Shown one piece after another: positions 12,044-62,806 of a stretch of DNA of 64,000 bases; position 1 is the stretch's first letter; each line of letters opens with the position of its first letter. A program made the position numbers and the translations under genes. Origin of the DNA: Caulobacter mirabilis (lineage in GTDB: Bacteria; Pseudomonadota; Alphaproteobacteria; Caulobacterales; Caulobacteraceae); the NCBI RefSeq assembly GCF_002749615.1, contig NZ_CP024201.1:558001-622000 (forward strand), given 5' to 3'. Under the pieces are notes generated by a model. The model made no database searches. It was not told the DNA's origin and saw nothing but the letters and a program-made list of their open reading frames with translations.

Positions 12044-12184
12044 TCCTCTCCTCTAGGAGAGCGGGACCACCCGAAGGGCGGTGGAGGGGCCAAAGGCGTC
12101 GGCTTGATCCGCCGATGATCGAGAGAAGTCTACCGCCGTGGGCCCTCTCCACCATGCCTGCGGCATGGTCCCCCTCTCCCGGCG
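12044..12184. repeat. Intergenic palindromic repeat (CTCTCC/GGAGAG type)
   Basis: Non-coding stretch between the convergent M20 peptidase and yebC. CTCTCCTCTAGGAGAG forms a short hairpin at the left end, and CCACCATGCCTGCGGCATGGT a second toward the right, ending in a CCCCCTCTCCC block. Similar blocks occur at 50285-50452 (inside imuB) and 59265-59315. Confidence 0.6.
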
Positions 12185-12198
12185 GAAGAGGAAAACGA

Positions 12199-12227
12199 AA
12201 AAGGGCGCGGATCGCCCCGCGCCCTTT
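12199..12227. terminator. Rho-independent terminator, probably bidirectional
   Basis: AAAGGGCGCGG and CCGCGCCCTTT form an 11-bp perfect stem with a 7-nt loop, flanked by A-rich sequence on the left and CCATTTT on the right. It lies between the convergent M20 peptidase and yebC genes. Confidence 0.8.
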
Positions 12228-12250
12228 CCATTTTCACGGCGAGGGAGGCC

Positions 12251-16539: not shown

Positions 16540-16542
16540 ATC

Positions 16543-16676
16543 GTTGCGCCCTTCGAGACGCGATCCTGGGGGATCGCTCCTCAGGATGACGAAGTCGGAT
16601 GAAGCGCGCCCACATTCGTCATGGTGGGGAGCGAGCGCAAGCGACCCCGGACTCGATCCGGGGCTCGAACCACGCA
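16543..16676. repeat. REP-like palindromic element, family A copy 1
   Basis: Begins CGCCCTTCGAGACGCGATCC, contains TCCTCAGGATGACGAA, then CATTCGTCATGGTGGGGAGC, and ends GGGGCTCGAACCACGCA. The two halves are inverted versions of one another. Further copies are at 21245, 40781, 41017 and 46029. It separates the 6S RNA from the cyclo-ligase gene. Confidence 0.8.
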
Positions 16677-21244: not shown

Positions 21245-21362
21245 TGCGTCCTTCGAGACGCTCGCCCGAGGCTCGCTCCTCAGGATGACGAATTCAGCAG
21301 GGCGCCCCCACCTTCGTCATGGTGAGGAGCGGACCCTCAGGTCCGCGTCTCGAACCACGCAG
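21245..21362. repeat. REP-like palindromic element, family A copy 2
   Basis: TGCGTCCTTCGAGACG ... GCTCCTCAGGATGACGAA on the left half is mirrored by TTCGTCATGGTGAGGAGC ... CGTCTCGAACCACGCA on the right. It fills the space between convergent purT and the pirin gene and could act as a two-way terminator. Confidence 0.85.
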
Positions 21363-21367
21363 GGCCG

Positions 21368-22237
21368 CTAGGCCGGGATCGCCCCGAAGCGGCCGGCGTT
21401 GAAGTCCTCGATCGTCTGGACCAGCTCCTGGCGGGTGTTCATGACGAACGGGCCGTGCCAGGCGACCGGCTCCTCGATCGGCTCGCCGCTCAGGACCAGG
21501 ATCTTGGCGTCGTTGTTGGCCTCGATCGCGACCTCGCCGCCCGTGCGGTCGAGCAGCACGAACTGGCCGCCGCGCGCGACGGCGTCGCCGTTGACCTGAA
21601 CCGTGCCGGACAGCACCGCCAGACCGAGCATGCGGCCCTCGGCCGGGGCGAGCGTCGTCCGGCCGCCGGCCTTCAGGCGCAGGTCCCAGACGTCGATCGG
21701 GGTGAAGGTGCGCGCCGGACCCTTGGCGCCGTCGTACGCGCCCGCGATCACCCGCAGCGTCCCGGCGCCGTCGGCCAGTTCGACCGTCGGAATGTCGGCC
21801 GCGACCAGGGTCTGGTAGGCGGGCGGCGCCCCCTTGTCCCGGGCCGGCAGGTTCACCCACAGCTGCGCCATCTCCATCACGCCGCCACGTTTGGTGAAGG
21901 CGTCGGAGTGGAACTCCTCGTGCAGGATGCCCGAGGCGGCCGTCATCCACTGCACGTCGCCGGGACCGATATGGCCGCCGCCGCCGGAGGAGTCGCGGTG
22001 ATCGACCTCGCCCTCGTAGACGATGGTGACGGTCTCGAAGCCGCGGTGCGGGTGGACCCCGACGCCGCGCCGGCGGTCGCTCGGCGAGAACTCGGCGGGG
22101 CCGGCGTGATCGAGCAGCAGAAAGGGGCTGACCTCGCCGCCGCCCATCGCGCCGTGGGCGAACATCGAGCGGACCGGAAAGCCGTCGCCGACCCAATGGG
22201 GCTTTGGGCTATCGTAAACGCCAAGAACCTGACGCAT
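21368..22237 (-). CDS. Pirin family protein
   Basis: 289 residues from ATG 22237 (MRQVLGVYDSPKPHWVGDGF). Cupin metal-binding residues are in GVGVHPHRGFETVTIVYEG and HRDSSGGGGHIGPGDVQWM, followed by GILHEEFHSDAF. Pirins are iron-containing cupins; bacterial members include quercetinases and redox sensors. Substrate cannot be told. An in-frame extension to 22342 is not supported by conservation. Confidence 0.93.
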   Translation of the reverse strand: MRQVLGVYDSPKPHWVGDGFPVRSMFAHGAMGGGEVSPFLLLDHAGPAEFSPSDRRRGVGVHPHRGFETVTIVYEGEVDHRDSSGGGGHIGPGDVQWMTAASGILHEEFHSDAFTKRGGVMEMAQLWVNLPARDKGAPPAYQTLVAADIPTVELADGAGTLRVIAGAYDGAKGPARTFTPIDVWDLRLKAGGRTTLAPAEGRMLGLAVLSGTVQVNGDAVARGGQFVLLDRTGGEVAIEANNDAKILVLSGEPIEEPVAWHGPFVMNTRQELVQTIEDFNAGRFGAIPA

Positions 22238-35562: not shown

Positions 35563-35599
35563 GGCGTCTCGAAGGACGCAGGGTCGCATCCCCCAACCC

Positions 35600-35690
35600 C
35601 GTCATCCTCGCGCTCGTCGCGAGGACCCATGCGTGGCGCGTCCCACGTTCTGGCGCAACCTCCCAACCGCCCGTGTTCATGGGTGGTCGG
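35600..35690. repeat. Palindromic repeat, family C copy 1
   Basis: CGTCATCCTCGCGCTCGTCG with CGAGGACCCATGCGTGGC, an inner hairpin CCTCGCGCTCGTCGCGAGG, and further on CCGTGTTCATGG. The same module, in the same order, recurs at 55379-55466. Confidence 0.75.
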
Positions 35691-40780: not shown

Positions 40781-40906
40781 CTCAGTGCGTGGTTCGAGAC
40801 GCATCGCGATGCTCGCTCCTCACCATGACGACTGTGGGTTGATCCAACAGACTTCGTCATCCTGAGGAGCGATCCCTCAGGATCGCGTCTCGAAGGACGC
40901 ACTGAG
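40781..40906. repeat. REP-like palindromic element, family A copy 3
   Basis: 126 bp bounded by perfect inverted ends CTCAGTGCGT and ACGCACTGAG. Inside are GGTTCGAGACG, GCTCCTCACCATGACGA and the mirrored CGTCATCCTGAGGAGC and CGTCTCGAAGGACGCA. The whole element can fold into one long interrupted hairpin. It is part of the 404-bp gene-free gap 40713-41116, which consists of a terminator and four repeats. Confidence 0.88.
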
Positions 40907-40908
40907 CG

Positions 40909-40990
40909 GGGGACATGCTCCCGAAGGGTGCGTGTCCCCGTTCGCACGGGTCGGGGGGACACGCACCGGCTTCGCCGGAGCATGTCCCCG
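40909..40990. repeat. Two GGGGACA-type palindromes (family B, copies 4 and 5)
   Basis: 40909-40939: GGGGACATGCTCCC pairs with GGGTGCGTGTCCCC. 40954-40990: GGGGGACACGCACCGGC pairs with GCCGGAGCATGTCCCC around a TTC loop. They are sandwiched between two family A elements. Confidence 0.85.
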
Positions 40991-45998: not shown

Positions 45999-46028
45999 GG
46001 AGCGGGTCGGCGCCGGGCGGCCGCTCAT

Positions 46029-46133
46029 TGCGTCCTTCGAGACGCTCGCCTAAGGGCTCGCTCCTCAGGACGACGAATTCAGAGCGCGTCATGGTGAGGA
46101 GCCGGGCCTCCGCCCGGCGTCTCGAACCACGCA
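46029..46133. repeat. REP-like palindromic element, family A copy 5
   Basis: TGCGTCCTTCGAGACGCTCG with CTCCTCAGGACGACGAATTC, then CGTCATGGTGAGGAGCCGGG and CGGCGTCTCGAACCACGCA: the two halves are inverted. It lies between the convergent DUF465 and acyl-CoA carboxylase genes. Confidence 0.85.
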
Positions 46134-46141
46134 AGATCGCC

Positions 46142-49493: not shown

Positions 49494-49506
49494 ATTGGAG
49501 ATCGTC

Positions 49507-50286
49507 ATGCCGGGGTCGCGTCAGGCGCGTCTTACGGCCTTGAAAGGCCAGGTCGCCGCTCTCGAAGCGGGGACTCGGACTCCAACCTCCGTCTTGCCGT
49601 TCGGCGATCCGCGCGTCGACGACTGCCTGCCGGGCGGCGGCCTGCCGCTGGGCCGTTGGCACGAACTGGCGAGTGCGGGGATGGAGATCGAGACGGGCGC
49701 GGTCGCGGCGGGCTTCGCCGCGATGCTGGCCCGGTCGATGGCTGGCCAAGGCGCGGTGATCTGGGTGATGCGGCGCGACGATCTCTATGCGCCGGGGCTG
49801 GCCGGGCTGGGCCTGTCGGCGTCGCGGCTGATTCAGGTGAAGACCCCGGACGAGGTCCAGACCCTGATGGCGCTGGAGGACGCCCTGGGCTCGGCGGGCG
49901 TGGCCGCGGTGATCGGCGAGGTCGAGGACGTCGACCTGACCGCCGGACGACGGCTGCAGCTGGCCTGCGAGCGGCACGGCGCGACGGGATTGGTGATCCG
50001 CCGACGGCCCTGGGGGGGAACGGGGCGCAAGCCGGACACGGGCTCGGCGGCGGCCACCCGCTGGCGGGTCTCCGCCGCTCCCAGCGATCCGGTCGGCGAG
50101 CCCGGCCTGGGCCCGCCCCGCTGGCGGGCGGCGCTGGAGCGGAGCCGAGGCGGACGTCCCGGCGAATGGATATTCGAAGGGAGGCAGGAGGCCGACCATG
50201 ACGCGCATCCTCTCCGTGTGGTTTCCGGACTGGCCGATCACGGCCTGGACGCGGCGAACGACCTGCCTGTCAGGCGACGGGCATGA
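49507..50286 (+). CDS. imuA: ImuA, RecA-like SOS mutagenesis protein
   Basis: 259 residues from ATG 49507 (MPGSRQARLTALKGQVAALE) with GGAG at 49497. VLPFGDPRVDDCLPGGGLPL and GRWHELASAG begin a RecA-like domain typical of ImuA, without a normal Walker A. It is needed with ImuB and DnaE2 for SOS mutagenesis. The C-terminus (WIFEGRQEADHDAHPLRVVS) overlaps imuB by 89 bp in another frame. Confidence 0.92.
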   Translation: MPGSRQARLTALKGQVAALEAGTRTPTSVLPFGDPRVDDCLPGGGLPLGRWHELASAGMEIETGAVAAGFAAMLARSMAGQGAVIWVMRRDDLYAPGLAGLGLSASRLIQVKTPDEVQTLMALEDALGSAGVAAVIGEVEDVDLTAGRRLQLACERHGATGLVIRRRPWGGTGRKPDTGSAAATRWRVSAAPSDPVGEPGLGPPRWRAALERSRGGRPGEWIFEGRQEADHDAHPLRVVSGLADHGLDAANDLPVRRRA

Positions 50287-51895
50287 CCCTCTGGCGCTCC
50301 CTCCCCCTCGCGGGGAGGGCGGATCGGCGAACCGCAGGCGAAACGAGACAGGGGGGGCGAGCGGCGATCGCGGGTCAACGTCGAACGCCTCGCTCCACCC
50401 TGCTCCGCTGCGCGAACCTGTCCCTCCTCACGAAGGGAAGGGAGGGCGGCGCCCCCTCGCCCTGCTGACCACCGAGGCGGGCGTCCGTCGTCTCTACGCC
50501 GTGGACGCGGCGGCGCGGGCGGTCGGGCTCTTTGCGGGTCAGAAGGCGACCGACGCGGCGGCGCTGGTTCCGGAGCTGCGCGCCGAGGAGGCCGATCCGC
50601 CCGCCGACGTTCAGGCGCTGGAGGCCGTCAGCGACTGGTGCGTCCGCTACTCGCCGGCCGTGGCGGTGGACGGCGTCGACGGGCTGTTCCTCGACATCAC
50701 CGGCGTCTCGCACCTGTGGGGCGGCGAGGCGGCCATGGCCGACGATCTGCTGGCCCGGCTGGCGACGAACGGCATTCCCGCCCGCGCGGCCGTCGCCGAC
50801 ACGGCCGGCGCGGCCTGGGCCCTGGCGCGTTTCGGCGGGGAGGGGCGGGTCATCGCCGATCCGGGCGGACAGGCCCCGCGGTTGGCCCCGCTGCCGATCA
50901 CGGCGTTGCGGCTGGACGAGGTCTCGGCGGCGCAGCTGCCGCGGCTGGGCCTGACCCGCATCGAGCGGCTGCTCGGCCTCCCGCGGGCGCAGTTGACCCG
51001 GCGGTTCGGGCCCATGGTGCTGCGCCGGTTGGACCAGGCCCTGGGCCGGGCCGAGGAAGCCCTGACCTTCCGGCGGCCGCCGACGCCCTGGTTCGATCGC
51101 CTGACCTTCGCCGAGCCGATCAGCGTCCTCGACGACCTGGTCCGCGCCGCCGGGGACATCACCGAGCGGCTCTGTCGGCGGCTGCAGGTCGAAGGGCGGG
51201 GCGCACGGAGGTTCGAGCTGACCTTCCACCGCCTCGACGGCAAGGCCTTCCCGACCCAGGCGGGCCTGTCGCTGGCGGGACGCGACGCCCGTGTTCTGAC
51301 CCGGCTGTTCGCGCCCAAGCTGGAAATGATCGATCCCGGCTTCGGCATCGAGGTGGTCACGCTGTCCGCCGGCGGGGTCGAGAGGCTGTCGGCCGCCCAG
51401 GGCAGTCTCGATTCCAGCCGCGCGGCCCTGGCCGAGGAGGAGGTGGCCGCCCTGGTCGATCGCCTGGCCAATCGCCTGGGAGAAAGCGCCGTCTGGCGCG
51501 CCGAAACCTTCGAGAGCCATGTGCCCGAACGCGCCGTTCATCCCGCGTCGGCGGTCGGGCCGGCGAGGCCCGACGGTTGGGATCCCGACAAGCCGCGGCC
51601 GATCCGCCTGTTCCCGCATCCCGAGGCGATCGCCGCCGTCGCCGAGCTGCCCGACGAACCGCCGGTCGCCTTCACCTGGCGCGGCCGTCGCCACCGGGTG
51701 AAGCGCGCCGAGGGACCCGAGCGCATCGCCGAGGAATGGTGGCGCAAGCCGATCGACAAGGTCGGTCCTGCTTTCGTGCGCGACTACTACCGGGTCGAGG
51801 ACGACACGGGCGCGCGGTTCTGGCTGTTCCGCGCGGGCCTCTATGGCGACCCCGAGACGCCGCCGCGCTGGTGGCTGCACGGAGTGTTCGCGTGA
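50198..51895 (+). CDS. imuB: ImuB, inactive Y-family polymerase-like protein (with in-frame insertion)
   Basis: 565 residues from ATG 50198, preceded by GGAGGCAGGAGG. MTRILSVWFPDWPITAW is the ImuB start, and TTEAGVRRLYAVDAAARAVG resumes the Y-family-like body, with VAVDGVDGLFLDITGVSHLW and SLAGRDARVLTRLFAPKL; the C-terminus WWRKPIDKVGPAFVRDYYRV is ImuB. Between about residues 28 and 85 an unrelated Pro/Gly/Arg-rich block is present, encoded by repeat-like DNA. ImuB is a beta-clamp-binding hub that is thought to lack polymerase activity. It follows imuA with 89 bp overlap and is 49 bp upstream of dnaE2. Confidence 0.9.
   Translation: MTRILSVWFPDWPITAWTRRTTCLSGDGHDPLALPPPRGEGGSANRRRNETGGASGDRGSTSNASLHPAPLREPVPPHEGKGGRRPLALLTTEAGVRRLYAVDAAARAVGLFAGQKATDAAALVPELRAEEADPPADVQALEAVSDWCVRYSPAVAVDGVDGLFLDITGVSHLWGGEAAMADDLLARLATNGIPARAAVADTAGAAWALARFGGEGRVIADPGGQAPRLAPLPITALRLDEVSAAQLPRLGLTRIERLLGLPRAQLTRRFGPMVLRRLDQALGRAEEALTFRRPPTPWFDRLTFAEPISVLDDLVRAAGDITERLCRRLQVEGRGARRFELTFHRLDGKAFPTQAGLSLAGRDARVLTRLFAPKLEMIDPGFGIEVVTLSAGGVERLSAAQGSLDSSRAALAEEEVAALVDRLANRLGESAVWRAETFESHVPERAVHPASAVGPARPDGWDPDKPRPIRLFPHPEAIAAVAELPDEPPVAFTWRGRRHRVKRAEGPERIAEEWWRKPIDKVGPAFVRDYYRVEDDTGARFWLFRAGLYGDPETPPRWWLHGVFA
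50285..50452. repeat. Palindromic repeat block inside imuB
   Basis: Starts right at the imuA stop. CCTCCCC-CTCGC-GGGGAGG is a clear hairpin near the left end, and CCCTCCTCACGAAGGGAAGG with GGAGGG a weaker one near the right end. In this frame it is translated without a stop as about 57 residues absent from the ImuB pattern. Related blocks are at 12044 and 59265. Confidence 0.65.
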
Positions 51896-51944: not shown

Positions 51945-54900
51945 GTGACCCGTTACGTCGAGCTCCAGGCCACGACCAACTATAGCTTCCTGCGCGGGGC
52001 CTCGCAGCCGGGCGAGCTGGCGGCGACGGCGCATGCGCTGGGGATCGAGGCCCTGGGGATCACCGACCGCAACAGCCTGGCCGGAGTGGTGCGGGCCTGG
52101 GCCAAGGCCAAGGCGCTGGGAGCCCGCAGCCTGACCGGTTGTCGGCTCGACTTCGACGATGGGACGCCCAGCCTGCTCTGCTACCCCTCCGACCGGGAGG
52201 CCTACGCCCGCCTGACCAAACTGCTGACCATCGGACAAAGCGGGGCGGAGAAAGGCGACTGCATCCTGTTCCGCCAGGATTTCCTCGACCACTCCGAGGG
52301 GCAGCTGGTCCTGATCGCGCCGCCGGCCCGGCTCGACGCCGCCTTTGAAGAGCATGTCGTGCGGCTGCGCGGCGAGCTGGGCGACCGCGTCTGGCTGGCC
52401 GCGTCGCGAGGTTACGCCGCCCAGGACGCCAAGCGGCTGCACCAGCTGGCGGCGCTGTCGGACCGAACGCTGACGCCGATGGTCGCCACCGGCGACGTTC
52501 TCTACCACGGCCCTGAACGTCGGCCGCTGCAGGATGTCCTGACCTGCATCCGTGAAGGGTGCACGATCGCGGAAGCCGGCTTCCGGCTGGAGGCCAACGC
52601 CGAACGGCATCTGAAGTCGCCCGAGGAGATGGCCCGCCTGTTCAAGGCTTGGCCCGGCGTCGTGGAACGCTCCGTCGAGATCGCCGACCGGATCGCCTTC
52701 GATCTGGGCAAGCTGAAAGAGGAGTATCCGGACGAGCCGGTGCCGCCGGGCAAGACGGCGATCCAGCACCTGCGCGACCTGGCCTTCGCCGGCGCCCGGA
52801 GCCGCTACCCGAAAAGTCGCTACCCCGACGGCGTCCCGACCAAGGTCGTGAAGAACCTGCGGATGGAGCTGAAGCTGATCCGCAAGATGGACTACCCCAA
52901 CTACTTCATCACCGTGCACGATATCGTCGCCGAGGCGCGACGGATGGGCATCCTGTGCCAGGGGCGGGGATCGGCGGCCAACTCGTCGGTCTGCTACTGC
53001 CTGGGCGTCACGGCTATCGACCCGACCAAGCACCGGCTGCTGTTCACCCGCTTCATTTCCGAGAACCGCGGCGAGCCGCCCGACATCGACGTCGACTTCG
53101 AGCACGAGCGGCGCGAGGAGGTGATGCAGTACGTCTACCGGCGCTACGGACGGCACAAGGCGGCGATCTGCGCCACGGTCATCCACTATCGGCCGCGCAG
53201 CGCCATCCGCGAGGTCGGCAAGGTGTTGGGCCTGACCGAGGACATCACCGCCGCGCTGGCCAACACGGTCTGGGGCAGCTGGGGCGGCGAGATCGCCGAG
53301 GACCATATCCGGCAGGTCGGGCTCGACCCGAAGAACTCCGAGATCCGGCGGGCCGTGGCGATCGCCACGGAGCTGCTGAACTTCCCCCGGCACCTGTCAC
53401 AGCATGTCGGCGGCTTCGTGCTGACCAAGCGCCGGCTCGACGAGACCGTGCCGATCGGCAACGCCGCGATGGAGGATCGCACCTTCATCCAGTGGGACAA
53501 GGACGACATCGACGCCCTGGGGCTGATGAAGGTCGATGTGCTCGCCCTGGGCATGCTGACCGCCCTGCAGCGCGGCATGACCATGCTGCGTCAGGACCAC
53601 GGCCAGCCGATCCGGGACCTGGTCGACATCCCGGAGGAGGAGAAGGGCGTCTACGACATGCTGTCGAAGGCCGACTCCCTGGGGGTGTTCCAGGTCGAGA
53701 GCCGGGCGCAGATGTCGATGCTGCCCAGGCTGCGGCCCGAGAAGTTCTATGACCTGGTGATCGAGGTCGCGATCGTCCGGCCGGGGCCGATCCAGGGGAA
53801 GATGGTCCACCCCTATCTGCGTCGCAAGCAGGGACTGGAAGACCCCGTCTATCCTTCGCCTCATCCTGACCACGGTCCGGCGGACGAACTGGAGCAGGTG
53901 TTGGGCAACACCCTCGGTGTGCCGCTTTTCCAGGAACAGGCGATGAGTTTGGCCATCGAGGCGGCCAAGTTCACGCCGGACGAGGCCGACGGCCTGCGCC
54001 GGGCGATGGCGACATTCCGCAATCTCGGCGACCCGGCGCAGTACCGTGGCCGTTTCGTCGGCGGCATGGTCGCGCGAGGCTACGAGCATGAGTTCGCCGA
54101 GCGCTGCTTCAAACAGATCGAGGGCTTCGGCTCCTACGGTTTCCCGGAGAGCCACGCCGCCAGCTTCGCCAAGCTGGTCTACGTCTCGGCCTGGATGAAA
54201 TGGAAATGGCCAGATGTCTTCTGCGCCGCTCTGCTGAACTCCCAGCCGATGGGCTTCTACCAGCCGGCGCAACTGGTCCGGGACGCCCGCGACCATGGCG
54301 TCGAGGTCCGTGCGGTCGACCTGATGCATAGCGACTGGGACTGCACCCTGGAGCCGGCGGCCGATCCGGCGGCGACGCTCAAGGCGGTGCGGCTCGGCTT
54401 TCGCGAGATCAAGGGCTTGAAGAAGGACGAGATGAATCGCCTGGTCGCGGCGCGCGAGGCCGGGGGCCAGACCCTGCTCGACCTGGCGCGGGCGGCGCGG
54501 CTGCCGCGCCGGGCGCTGGAGCTGCTGGCCGAAGCCGACGCCTTCCGGTCGCTGGGCATGGACCGCCGGGCGGCGCTCTGGGCCGTCAAGGGCGAGGCGG
54601 CCGAGGTCGCGGCGGATCGGGACACGATGTTGGACGGCCTGCCGTTGTTCGAGGCCCCGGCGGCGCTGCCTCAGATGACCCTGCCGCAGCATGTGGCCGA
54701 GGACTACCGGACCACCGGCCTGTCCCTGAAGGCCCACCCCTGCGAATTCTACCGGCCGATGCTGGACGAGATGGGCTGCGTCCGGGCGAGCGACCTGCCG
54801 AAGCTGAAGAGTGGAACGCGGGTGTCGCTGGGCGGCCTGGTGCTGATCCGCCAGCGGCCGAGCACGGCCAAGGGCGTGGTCTTCGTCACCCTGGAGGACG

Positions 54901-55163
54901 AGACCGGGCCGGCCAACGCCGTGGTCTGGGAGGACGTCTTCAAGGCCAACCGGCGTGTGGCGATGAGCGCTTCCTTCATGGTGGTGCACGGGCGCATCCA
55001 GCGCGACCATGACGGGCGCAAGGAGGGCGAGGTCATCCATATCGTGGTGGAGCGGTTCACCGACCTCACCGCCGAACTCGGCCGCATGCGCGAGGAAGCG
55101 CGCCCGACCCGGCCCAGCGAAGAGGTCCGCACCCGGCTGGTTCGCAGCCGGGACTTCCACTAG
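51945..55163 (+). CDS. dnaE2: DnaE2, error-prone DNA polymerase III alpha-like
   Basis: 1072 residues from GTG 51945. N-terminal PHP domain ([31 protein letters not shown]). Polymerase catalytic Asp motif [20 protein letters not shown], then [20 protein letters not shown] and [14 protein letters not shown]; a C-terminal OB fold follows ([20 protein letters not shown]). Works with ImuA/ImuB for translesion synthesis and SOS mutagenesis. Shorter than replicative DnaE (about 1150), as expected. Probably co-transcribed from the LexA-controlled promoter at 49454. Confidence 0.95.
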
Positions 55164-55300: not shown

Positions 55301-55378
55301 CTCGGAGGAAAACAGGCCAAGCTGCCCGAATGTCGATACGACCTAGGGGACCGCGACGCGTCGTGCTTCCTCTCCCTC

Positions 55379-55466
55379 CGTCATCCTCGCGCTCGTCGCG
55401 AGGACCCATGCGTGGCGGGGCGGGCTGGTCGGCGCACCATCACCGCCGTCCGTGTTCATGGGGCCT
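55379..55466. repeat. Palindromic repeat, family C copy 2
   Basis: CGTCATCCTCGCGCTCGTCG with CGAGGACCCATGCGTGGCG and, 30-odd bp on, CCGTGTTCATGG. Matches copy 1 at 35600-35690 in its first 38 bases and in its CGTGTTCATGG end, with a variable middle. Confidence 0.75.
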
Positions 55467-62746: not shown

Positions 62747-62772
62747 GACCGTCTTCACCGATCTCTCTCTGG

Positions 62773-62806
62773 AAAGGGCGCGGATCACTCCGCGCCCTTT
62801 TCGTTT
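62773..62806 (+). terminator. Rho-independent terminator after nusG
   Basis: AAAGGGCGCGG-ATCACT-CCGCGCCCTTTT, an 11-bp stem with T-rich tail, 26 bp after the nusG stop. Confidence 0.9.

Follow-up and report, generated by a model that had tools for sequence, protein, structure and literature searches.

What is a block of palindromic DNA doing inside the coding sequence of imuB in Caulobacter mirabilis, and why does it lie where it does? The window analysed here is a stretch of 64,000 nt from a single-contig genome of 4.58 Mb, and it contains a three-gene cassette (Table 1). The middle gene, imuB, is a single open frame of 565 codons in the ORF list. Its product has the Pfam domains IMS (residues 86–208), IMS_C, and DUF6504, and the 50 PDB entries listed as matches to its AlphaFold model belong to the Y family of polymerases. 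The first gene, whose product had no match in a Pfam search, is taken to be imuA from its position upstream of imuB and dnaE2 and the usual gene order, while the third is presumably dnaE2, to judge by its sequence and location. In C. crescentus, DnaN foci are retained when imuB is missing, the same as when dnaE2 is missing (PMC8102061).

Table 1. Features of the cassette and in-frame repeat copies in other genes (window positions unless a contig is given).
Feature	Genome	Position	Strand	Basis or remark
imuA	window	49495..50286	+	ORF list; stop codon 50284-50286 inside imuB
imuB, Y-family polymerase homolog, 565 aa	window	50198..51895	+	Pfam IMS/IMS_C/DUF6504; AlphaFold model matches
imuA/imuB overlap, 89 nt	window	50198..50286	+	ORF list
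dnaE2 (presumed), third gene of cassette	window	51945..55163	+	ORF, 1072 aa
Decayed palindromic repeat element, in frame, ImuB residues 34-82	window	50297..50444	+	match to G028 insert, fold z, low pLDDT
Outer inverted repeat, left arm, with CCCTCCCC/GGGGAGGG hairpin	window	50294..50319	+	inverted-repeat comparison
Outer inverted repeat, right arm	window	50422..50447	+	inverted-repeat comparison
Hydantoinase/oxoprolinase (L216)	G000 (window's own genome)	C1:1459391-1459493		in-frame copy between A and B domains
Lhr-type helicase	G010			in-frame copy
Methyltransf_28 protein	G031			in-frame copy
Asparagine synthase	G011, G025, G026			in-frame copy

The conserved ImuB pattern stops near R19 and picks up at P86. 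Between these points lies an element of 148 bp that starts 10 nt after the imuA stop codon and is read in the imuB frame. Terminal inverted repeats were found, 26 nt long and 81% matched, the left one including a perfect 8-bp hairpin (50299–50306 with 50312–50319). The fold of 150 nt at 50290–50439 has a z of -2.2 against dinucleotide shuffles, four of 200 shuffles being as good; one stretch of the ImuB core, folded as a control, gave -0.4. The corresponding values are -3.6 for the ImuB insert of a relative, G028 (148 nt of the insert), and -8.5 for that of C. vibrioides. The G028 insert is also a counterpart in sequence, with 76% identity to the block over 157 nt (E 2.8e-25). An earlier, sequence-only reading of this DNA had proposed a palindromic repeat in frame within imuB, which the single 565-codon frame, the hairpins, and the G028 match bear out, and it had placed the resumption of the ImuB pattern near residue 86, just where it is found. 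Its further statement that the block begins exactly at the imuA stop has to be corrected by the 10 nt given above.

The AlphaFold model of ImuB (45 sequences) has a mean pLDDT of 84.6, with 362 of 565 residues at 90 or above. Values below 50 are found at residues 34–75 and 78–81 (also at 406–411), and this low-scoring insert sits between a helix at 12–24 and a strand at 87–93. AlphaFold puts it in a predicted disordered loop of the palm.

Copies of the element were sought in the window's genome and in relatives. Searching the window's genome with the block at E ≤ 10 returned, among the best 40 of 80 candidates, the block itself and 39 partial matches of 15–34 nt, all with E of 0.008 or more; the G028 element at E ≤ 0.001 gave no second copy among the best 40 of 50. 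As far as seen among the candidates scored, the imuB copy thus appears to be both lone and decayed, and the only in-frame occurrence seen of its own family is in ImuB. Its sister elements are multicopy. Among the matches listed, full-length copies besides those in ImuB number nine in G028 (81–88%) and eight in G035 (80–88%), and related copies at ~71–75% occur in G026, G025, and G029. At E ≤ 0.001 the G028 insert has at least 33 matches in G028, 30 in G035, 69 in G026, 52 in G025, 34 in G029, three in G011, and one in the window's genome, each number being a minimum, with the best 40 candidates at most scored per genome and with partial and opposite-strand matches included. Counted in the same way, with queries of 110–157 nt throughout, the insert of C. 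vibrioides DSM 9893 has at least 79 matches in its own genome, and that of G011 at least 86 in G011 and at least 114 in the window's genome. In G028, G001, and G011 the insert is therefore a repeat within the genome that carries it. The sequence-only reading had counted two findings against a captured repeat. One, a conserved homologous segment in close relatives, was not found: relatives have different families, remnants, or nothing at the site. The other, no further copy in the genome, is literally what the best 40 of 80 and 40 of 50 candidates gave, but with full-length copies in sister genomes that test proves too strict.

The same reading likened the block to the intergenic spacers at 12044 and 59265. 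The resemblance holds for architecture, the first folding into a long hairpin and the second into a short one. Kinship in sequence finds no support, as no match was listed at either spacer among those candidates. Other repeats are also present in the window. Dispersed palindromic repeats with CGTCAT starts, 74–93% alike and on both strands, lie at 16541–16601, 21270–21368, 40814–40909, and 46021–46140. A 53-nt repeat (GTCATCCTCGCGCTCGTCGCGAGGACCC) occurs at 35586–35638 and 55365–55417 with 89% identity, and at 12199–12230 and 62770–62801 lie two inverted copies, 88% alike, of a terminator-like hairpin whose stem is GGGCGCGG/CCGCGCCC.

The site is variable throughout the genus. Among 61 relatives, ImuB was found in 52. 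The N-terminus could be read at 28 of 30 loci, and in these the segment ranges from almost nothing (L054, L055) to ~70 residues and varies widely in sequence. These 28 segments and six more from named records were compared as DNA; the 34 fall into clusters of 23, four, two, and two, plus three singles without a full element, one of which (L064) retains a small remnant. In sequence, the inserts represent several unrelated repeat families. In a broader survey of 75 genomes there was a match in 71 and a usable ImuB core in 68 (those left out being G015, G020, and G089, with partial or paralogous matches only, and the four without a match). Forty-two of the 68 have 25–67 extra codons at the site, in frame in all cases but one. 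Another 23 have no long insert (from five codons fewer to 10 more than the query); eight of these have a divergent form of ImuB at 42–45% identity, and at least two (G009, G035) have remnants. The last three have no N-terminal match on the same contig. The one frame exception is G031 (L049), where around 1174–1560 the imuB N-terminus and core are in different frames with partial palindromic elements between them, either a natural frameshift or an assembly error. Phenylobacterium ImuB mostly has 27–34 residues before the core, and a few (L068, L073, L080, and L082 among them) have inserts that are repeat-like in peptide, as judged by eye from peptides only.

The position of the repeats relative to stop codons suggests why this site should recur. 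Of 74 copies outside imuB, just six are inside genes. The others have 82 neighboring gene 3' ends, at a median of 11 nt and with 67 of the 82 within 30 nt, and 52 neighboring 5' ends, at a median of 42 nt and with 20 within 30 nt; these copies are the best-scoring ones, some of them orthologous, and are not a random sample, and the gene calls are heuristic. Across 40 spacers between co-directional genes, the copy is closer to the 3' end in 26 and equidistant in one (binomial p 0.053, Wilcoxon p 0.002). The usual address of these repeats seems to be just 3' of a stop codon. At the imuB locus itself, a stem-like motif of the element follows the imuA stop by 1–13 nt (median 7) in 32 of 34 loci, although the stem was located by scanning behind the stop for any of a set of short C/T-rich motifs, a procedure that favors small distances. 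Measured at 34 Caulobacter loci, the distance from the imuB start to the imuA stop is 74–86 nt in 31 and greater in the other three. Because imuA overlaps imuB, the stop-codon address falls inside imuB. In the three exceptions (L050, L053, and L063) the stop is 113, 128, and 170 nt past the imuB start and adjoins the start of the element (TAGATCC), which appears to provide it; part of the insert is consequently read in both genes.

Capture in frame is not improbable in itself, since more frames are open in the elements than in shuffled versions: over the 74 copies, three families have means of 2.9, 4.9, and 3.1 open frames of six, against 2.2, 3.2, and 2.9. Two sister families are also found in frame in four further protein genes (Table 1; one representative of each was examined with Pfam). 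The oxoprolinase is the least clean of these cases, as the linker of its relatives at that point is of similar length and variable, and several are repeat-like by eye.

The block is very probably a decayed dispersed palindromic repeat, MITE- or REP-like, that lies behind the imuA stop and, through the gene overlap, in a loop of ImuB where it is disordered and tolerated. The Caulobacter copies examined mostly adjoin gene 3' ends, and this one sits just 3' of the imuA stop codon; the overlap with the start of imuB places this address in the palm loop that leads from helix 1 to strand 2. Elements that insert there, lose internal segments, or replace one another would persist while the imuB frame remains open, and the added peptide would be disordered and tolerated. 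On this account the element presumably came as mobile DNA, not through recombination between strains; it would be translated, the protein would work with the insert in place, and the element would have no function of its own. Putative tolerated parasitic DNA is the likeliest description.

Comparisons between alleles show how the insert changes. The alleles of G026 and G011 are close, with 15 differences in 372 nt upstream of it and 1114 identical columns of 1209 downstream; their elements are unrelated, and their imuA stop codons differ as well. G035 looks like a G028-like allele from which the middle of the palindrome may have been deleted. On a tree of 39 rows, the five insert labels require at least eight changes against a shuffled mean of 14.8, so inheritance accounts for part of the label's distribution and turnover for the rest. 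Eleven pairs were run for dN/dS, and two with replaced or deleted inserts were put aside; the insert exceeds the core in dN/dS in each of the nine with alignable inserts. In seven of the nine, which have members in common, dS is lower in the insert. Among six C. vibrioides-type inserts, two of the 43 fold pairs are changed on both sides and eight are broken in at least one sequence. Low insert dS and the changes in fold pairs could reflect a nucleic-acid constraint or conversion by other copies. In two related genomes, G028 (L060, own ImuB residues 209–268) and G029 (L059, 206–268), ImuB has a further palindromic insert, unlike the first but also in frame, at another loop of the model, with fold z of -5.6 and -9.5, respectively, against mononucleotide shuffles.

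The low dS in seven of nine pairs and the two compensated fold pairs would also fit a palindrome kept for a role of its mRNA hairpin or its peptide, such as uncoupling imuB-dnaE2 expression from imuA, as would the presence of a long insert in 42 of the 65 resolved Caulobacter genomes and the fact that related alleles have different families at this one position. Such a role is nonetheless distinctly unlikely: the 23 genomes without a long insert include near kin of carriers (L054, L055, and L064), the copy in the window has decayed (its z of -2.2 compares with -3.6 and -8.5 in relatives), and the sequences of the families differ. Nor is it at all likely that translation of ImuB begins behind the insert, leaving the repeat truly intergenic. 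The G031 locus, with its core frame still open although the N-terminus is in another, is what would be expected of a downstream start, but residues 1–20 are conserved and continuous with the core in insert-free species, in the model they make up the palm's first strand and helix, and the frame is kept by 41 of the 42 long inserts. Least credible of all is an ordinary fast-evolving Pro/Gly/Arg-rich ImuB linker with a palindrome that is a by-product of GC-rich composition; disordered linkers are free to vary, a long insert is missing from 23 of the 68 usable Caulobacter genomes, and ImuB of other taxa has 26–67 residues before the core, but in relatives the insert DNA, beyond the peptide, matches tens of sites in the same or sister genomes and folds with z of up to -8.5, and for the window's copy the 76% identity to the G028 insert contradicts this explanation.

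Protein-coding palindromes have a precedent. The title of a 2002 article by Ogata et al. calls them a unique but recurrent feature of Rickettsia, and the same group reportedly described the Rickettsia palindromic elements in 2000 and 2002 and counterparts in Wolbachia in 2005. The Rickettsia elements (RPE) are palindromes of ~100–150 bp that occupy intergenic positions but also occur as in-frame fusions within unrelated protein genes (PMC10969869, PMC2229807). The element in the window is within this size range, and the Caulobacter repeats, counting sister families, are likewise in frame in several unrelated protein genes. They differ in that the host is a free-living Caulobacter, that several families occupy one gene position, and that this position is explained by an overlapping upstream gene. 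By analogy the Caulobacter element would work as an RPE does, in another lineage, at one recurrent site and with exchangeable families; membership in the RPE families is not claimed.

Two other kinds of repeat were considered. The CIR elements of Caulobacter (Chen and Shapiro, 2003) are described in two reviews as two-armed palindromes of ~110 bp with GANTC (CcrM) sites and as strictly intergenic (PMC10969869, PMC2229807). The window's element shares the two-armed palindrome and the genus with CIR as described but is inside imuB, and identity with CIR was rejected on those descriptions, GANTC not being a constant feature: there is none in the window's segment, 26 of the 34 ImuB loop segments lack it (in the other eight, some sites are outside the element), and among 13 other C. 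vibrioides-type copies three have it. REP/BIME elements, which are associated with RAYT transposases, are GC-rich palindromes present in high copy near gene ends. The Caulobacter elements are also GC-rich, in high copy in sister genomes, and near gene ends, but the Y1 transposase family (Y1_Tnp, PF01797) was detected neither in the window's genome (G000) nor in seven of the nine others searched, leaving two of 10 with it. As several genomes with abundant elements do not have it, Y1_Tnp was rejected as their transposase.

No description of palindromes captured in frame, in Caulobacter or in ImuB, turned up among the titles and opening lines of abstracts listed in a literature search, and absence is claimed at that level. 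The recurrence across the genus, the exchangeable families, and a position that follows from the imuA/imuB overlap all go beyond the sequence-only reading. A bolder proposal takes integration right behind stop codons as the rule for Caulobacter palindromic elements: the overlap of imuA and imuB would put that address inside the next gene and turn a protein of the SOS mutasome into a permanent target, and hairpin and loop would in this way alter the expression or action of imuB/dnaE2 and, with them, the induced mutation rate of each species. It is offered tentatively and is unlikely to hold.

The pattern suggests that parasitic DNA has been repeatedly taken into a protein in a free-living bacterium. 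Here a free-living genus, one with a laboratory model among its species, has protein-coding palindromes as exchangeable families at one gene position, and this makes an old question testable, namely whether in-frame capture of a repeat is merely tolerated or alters the protein. The placement rule is a simple one that can be checked in other genomes: the repeats adjoin stop codons, and where genes overlap that address becomes coding.
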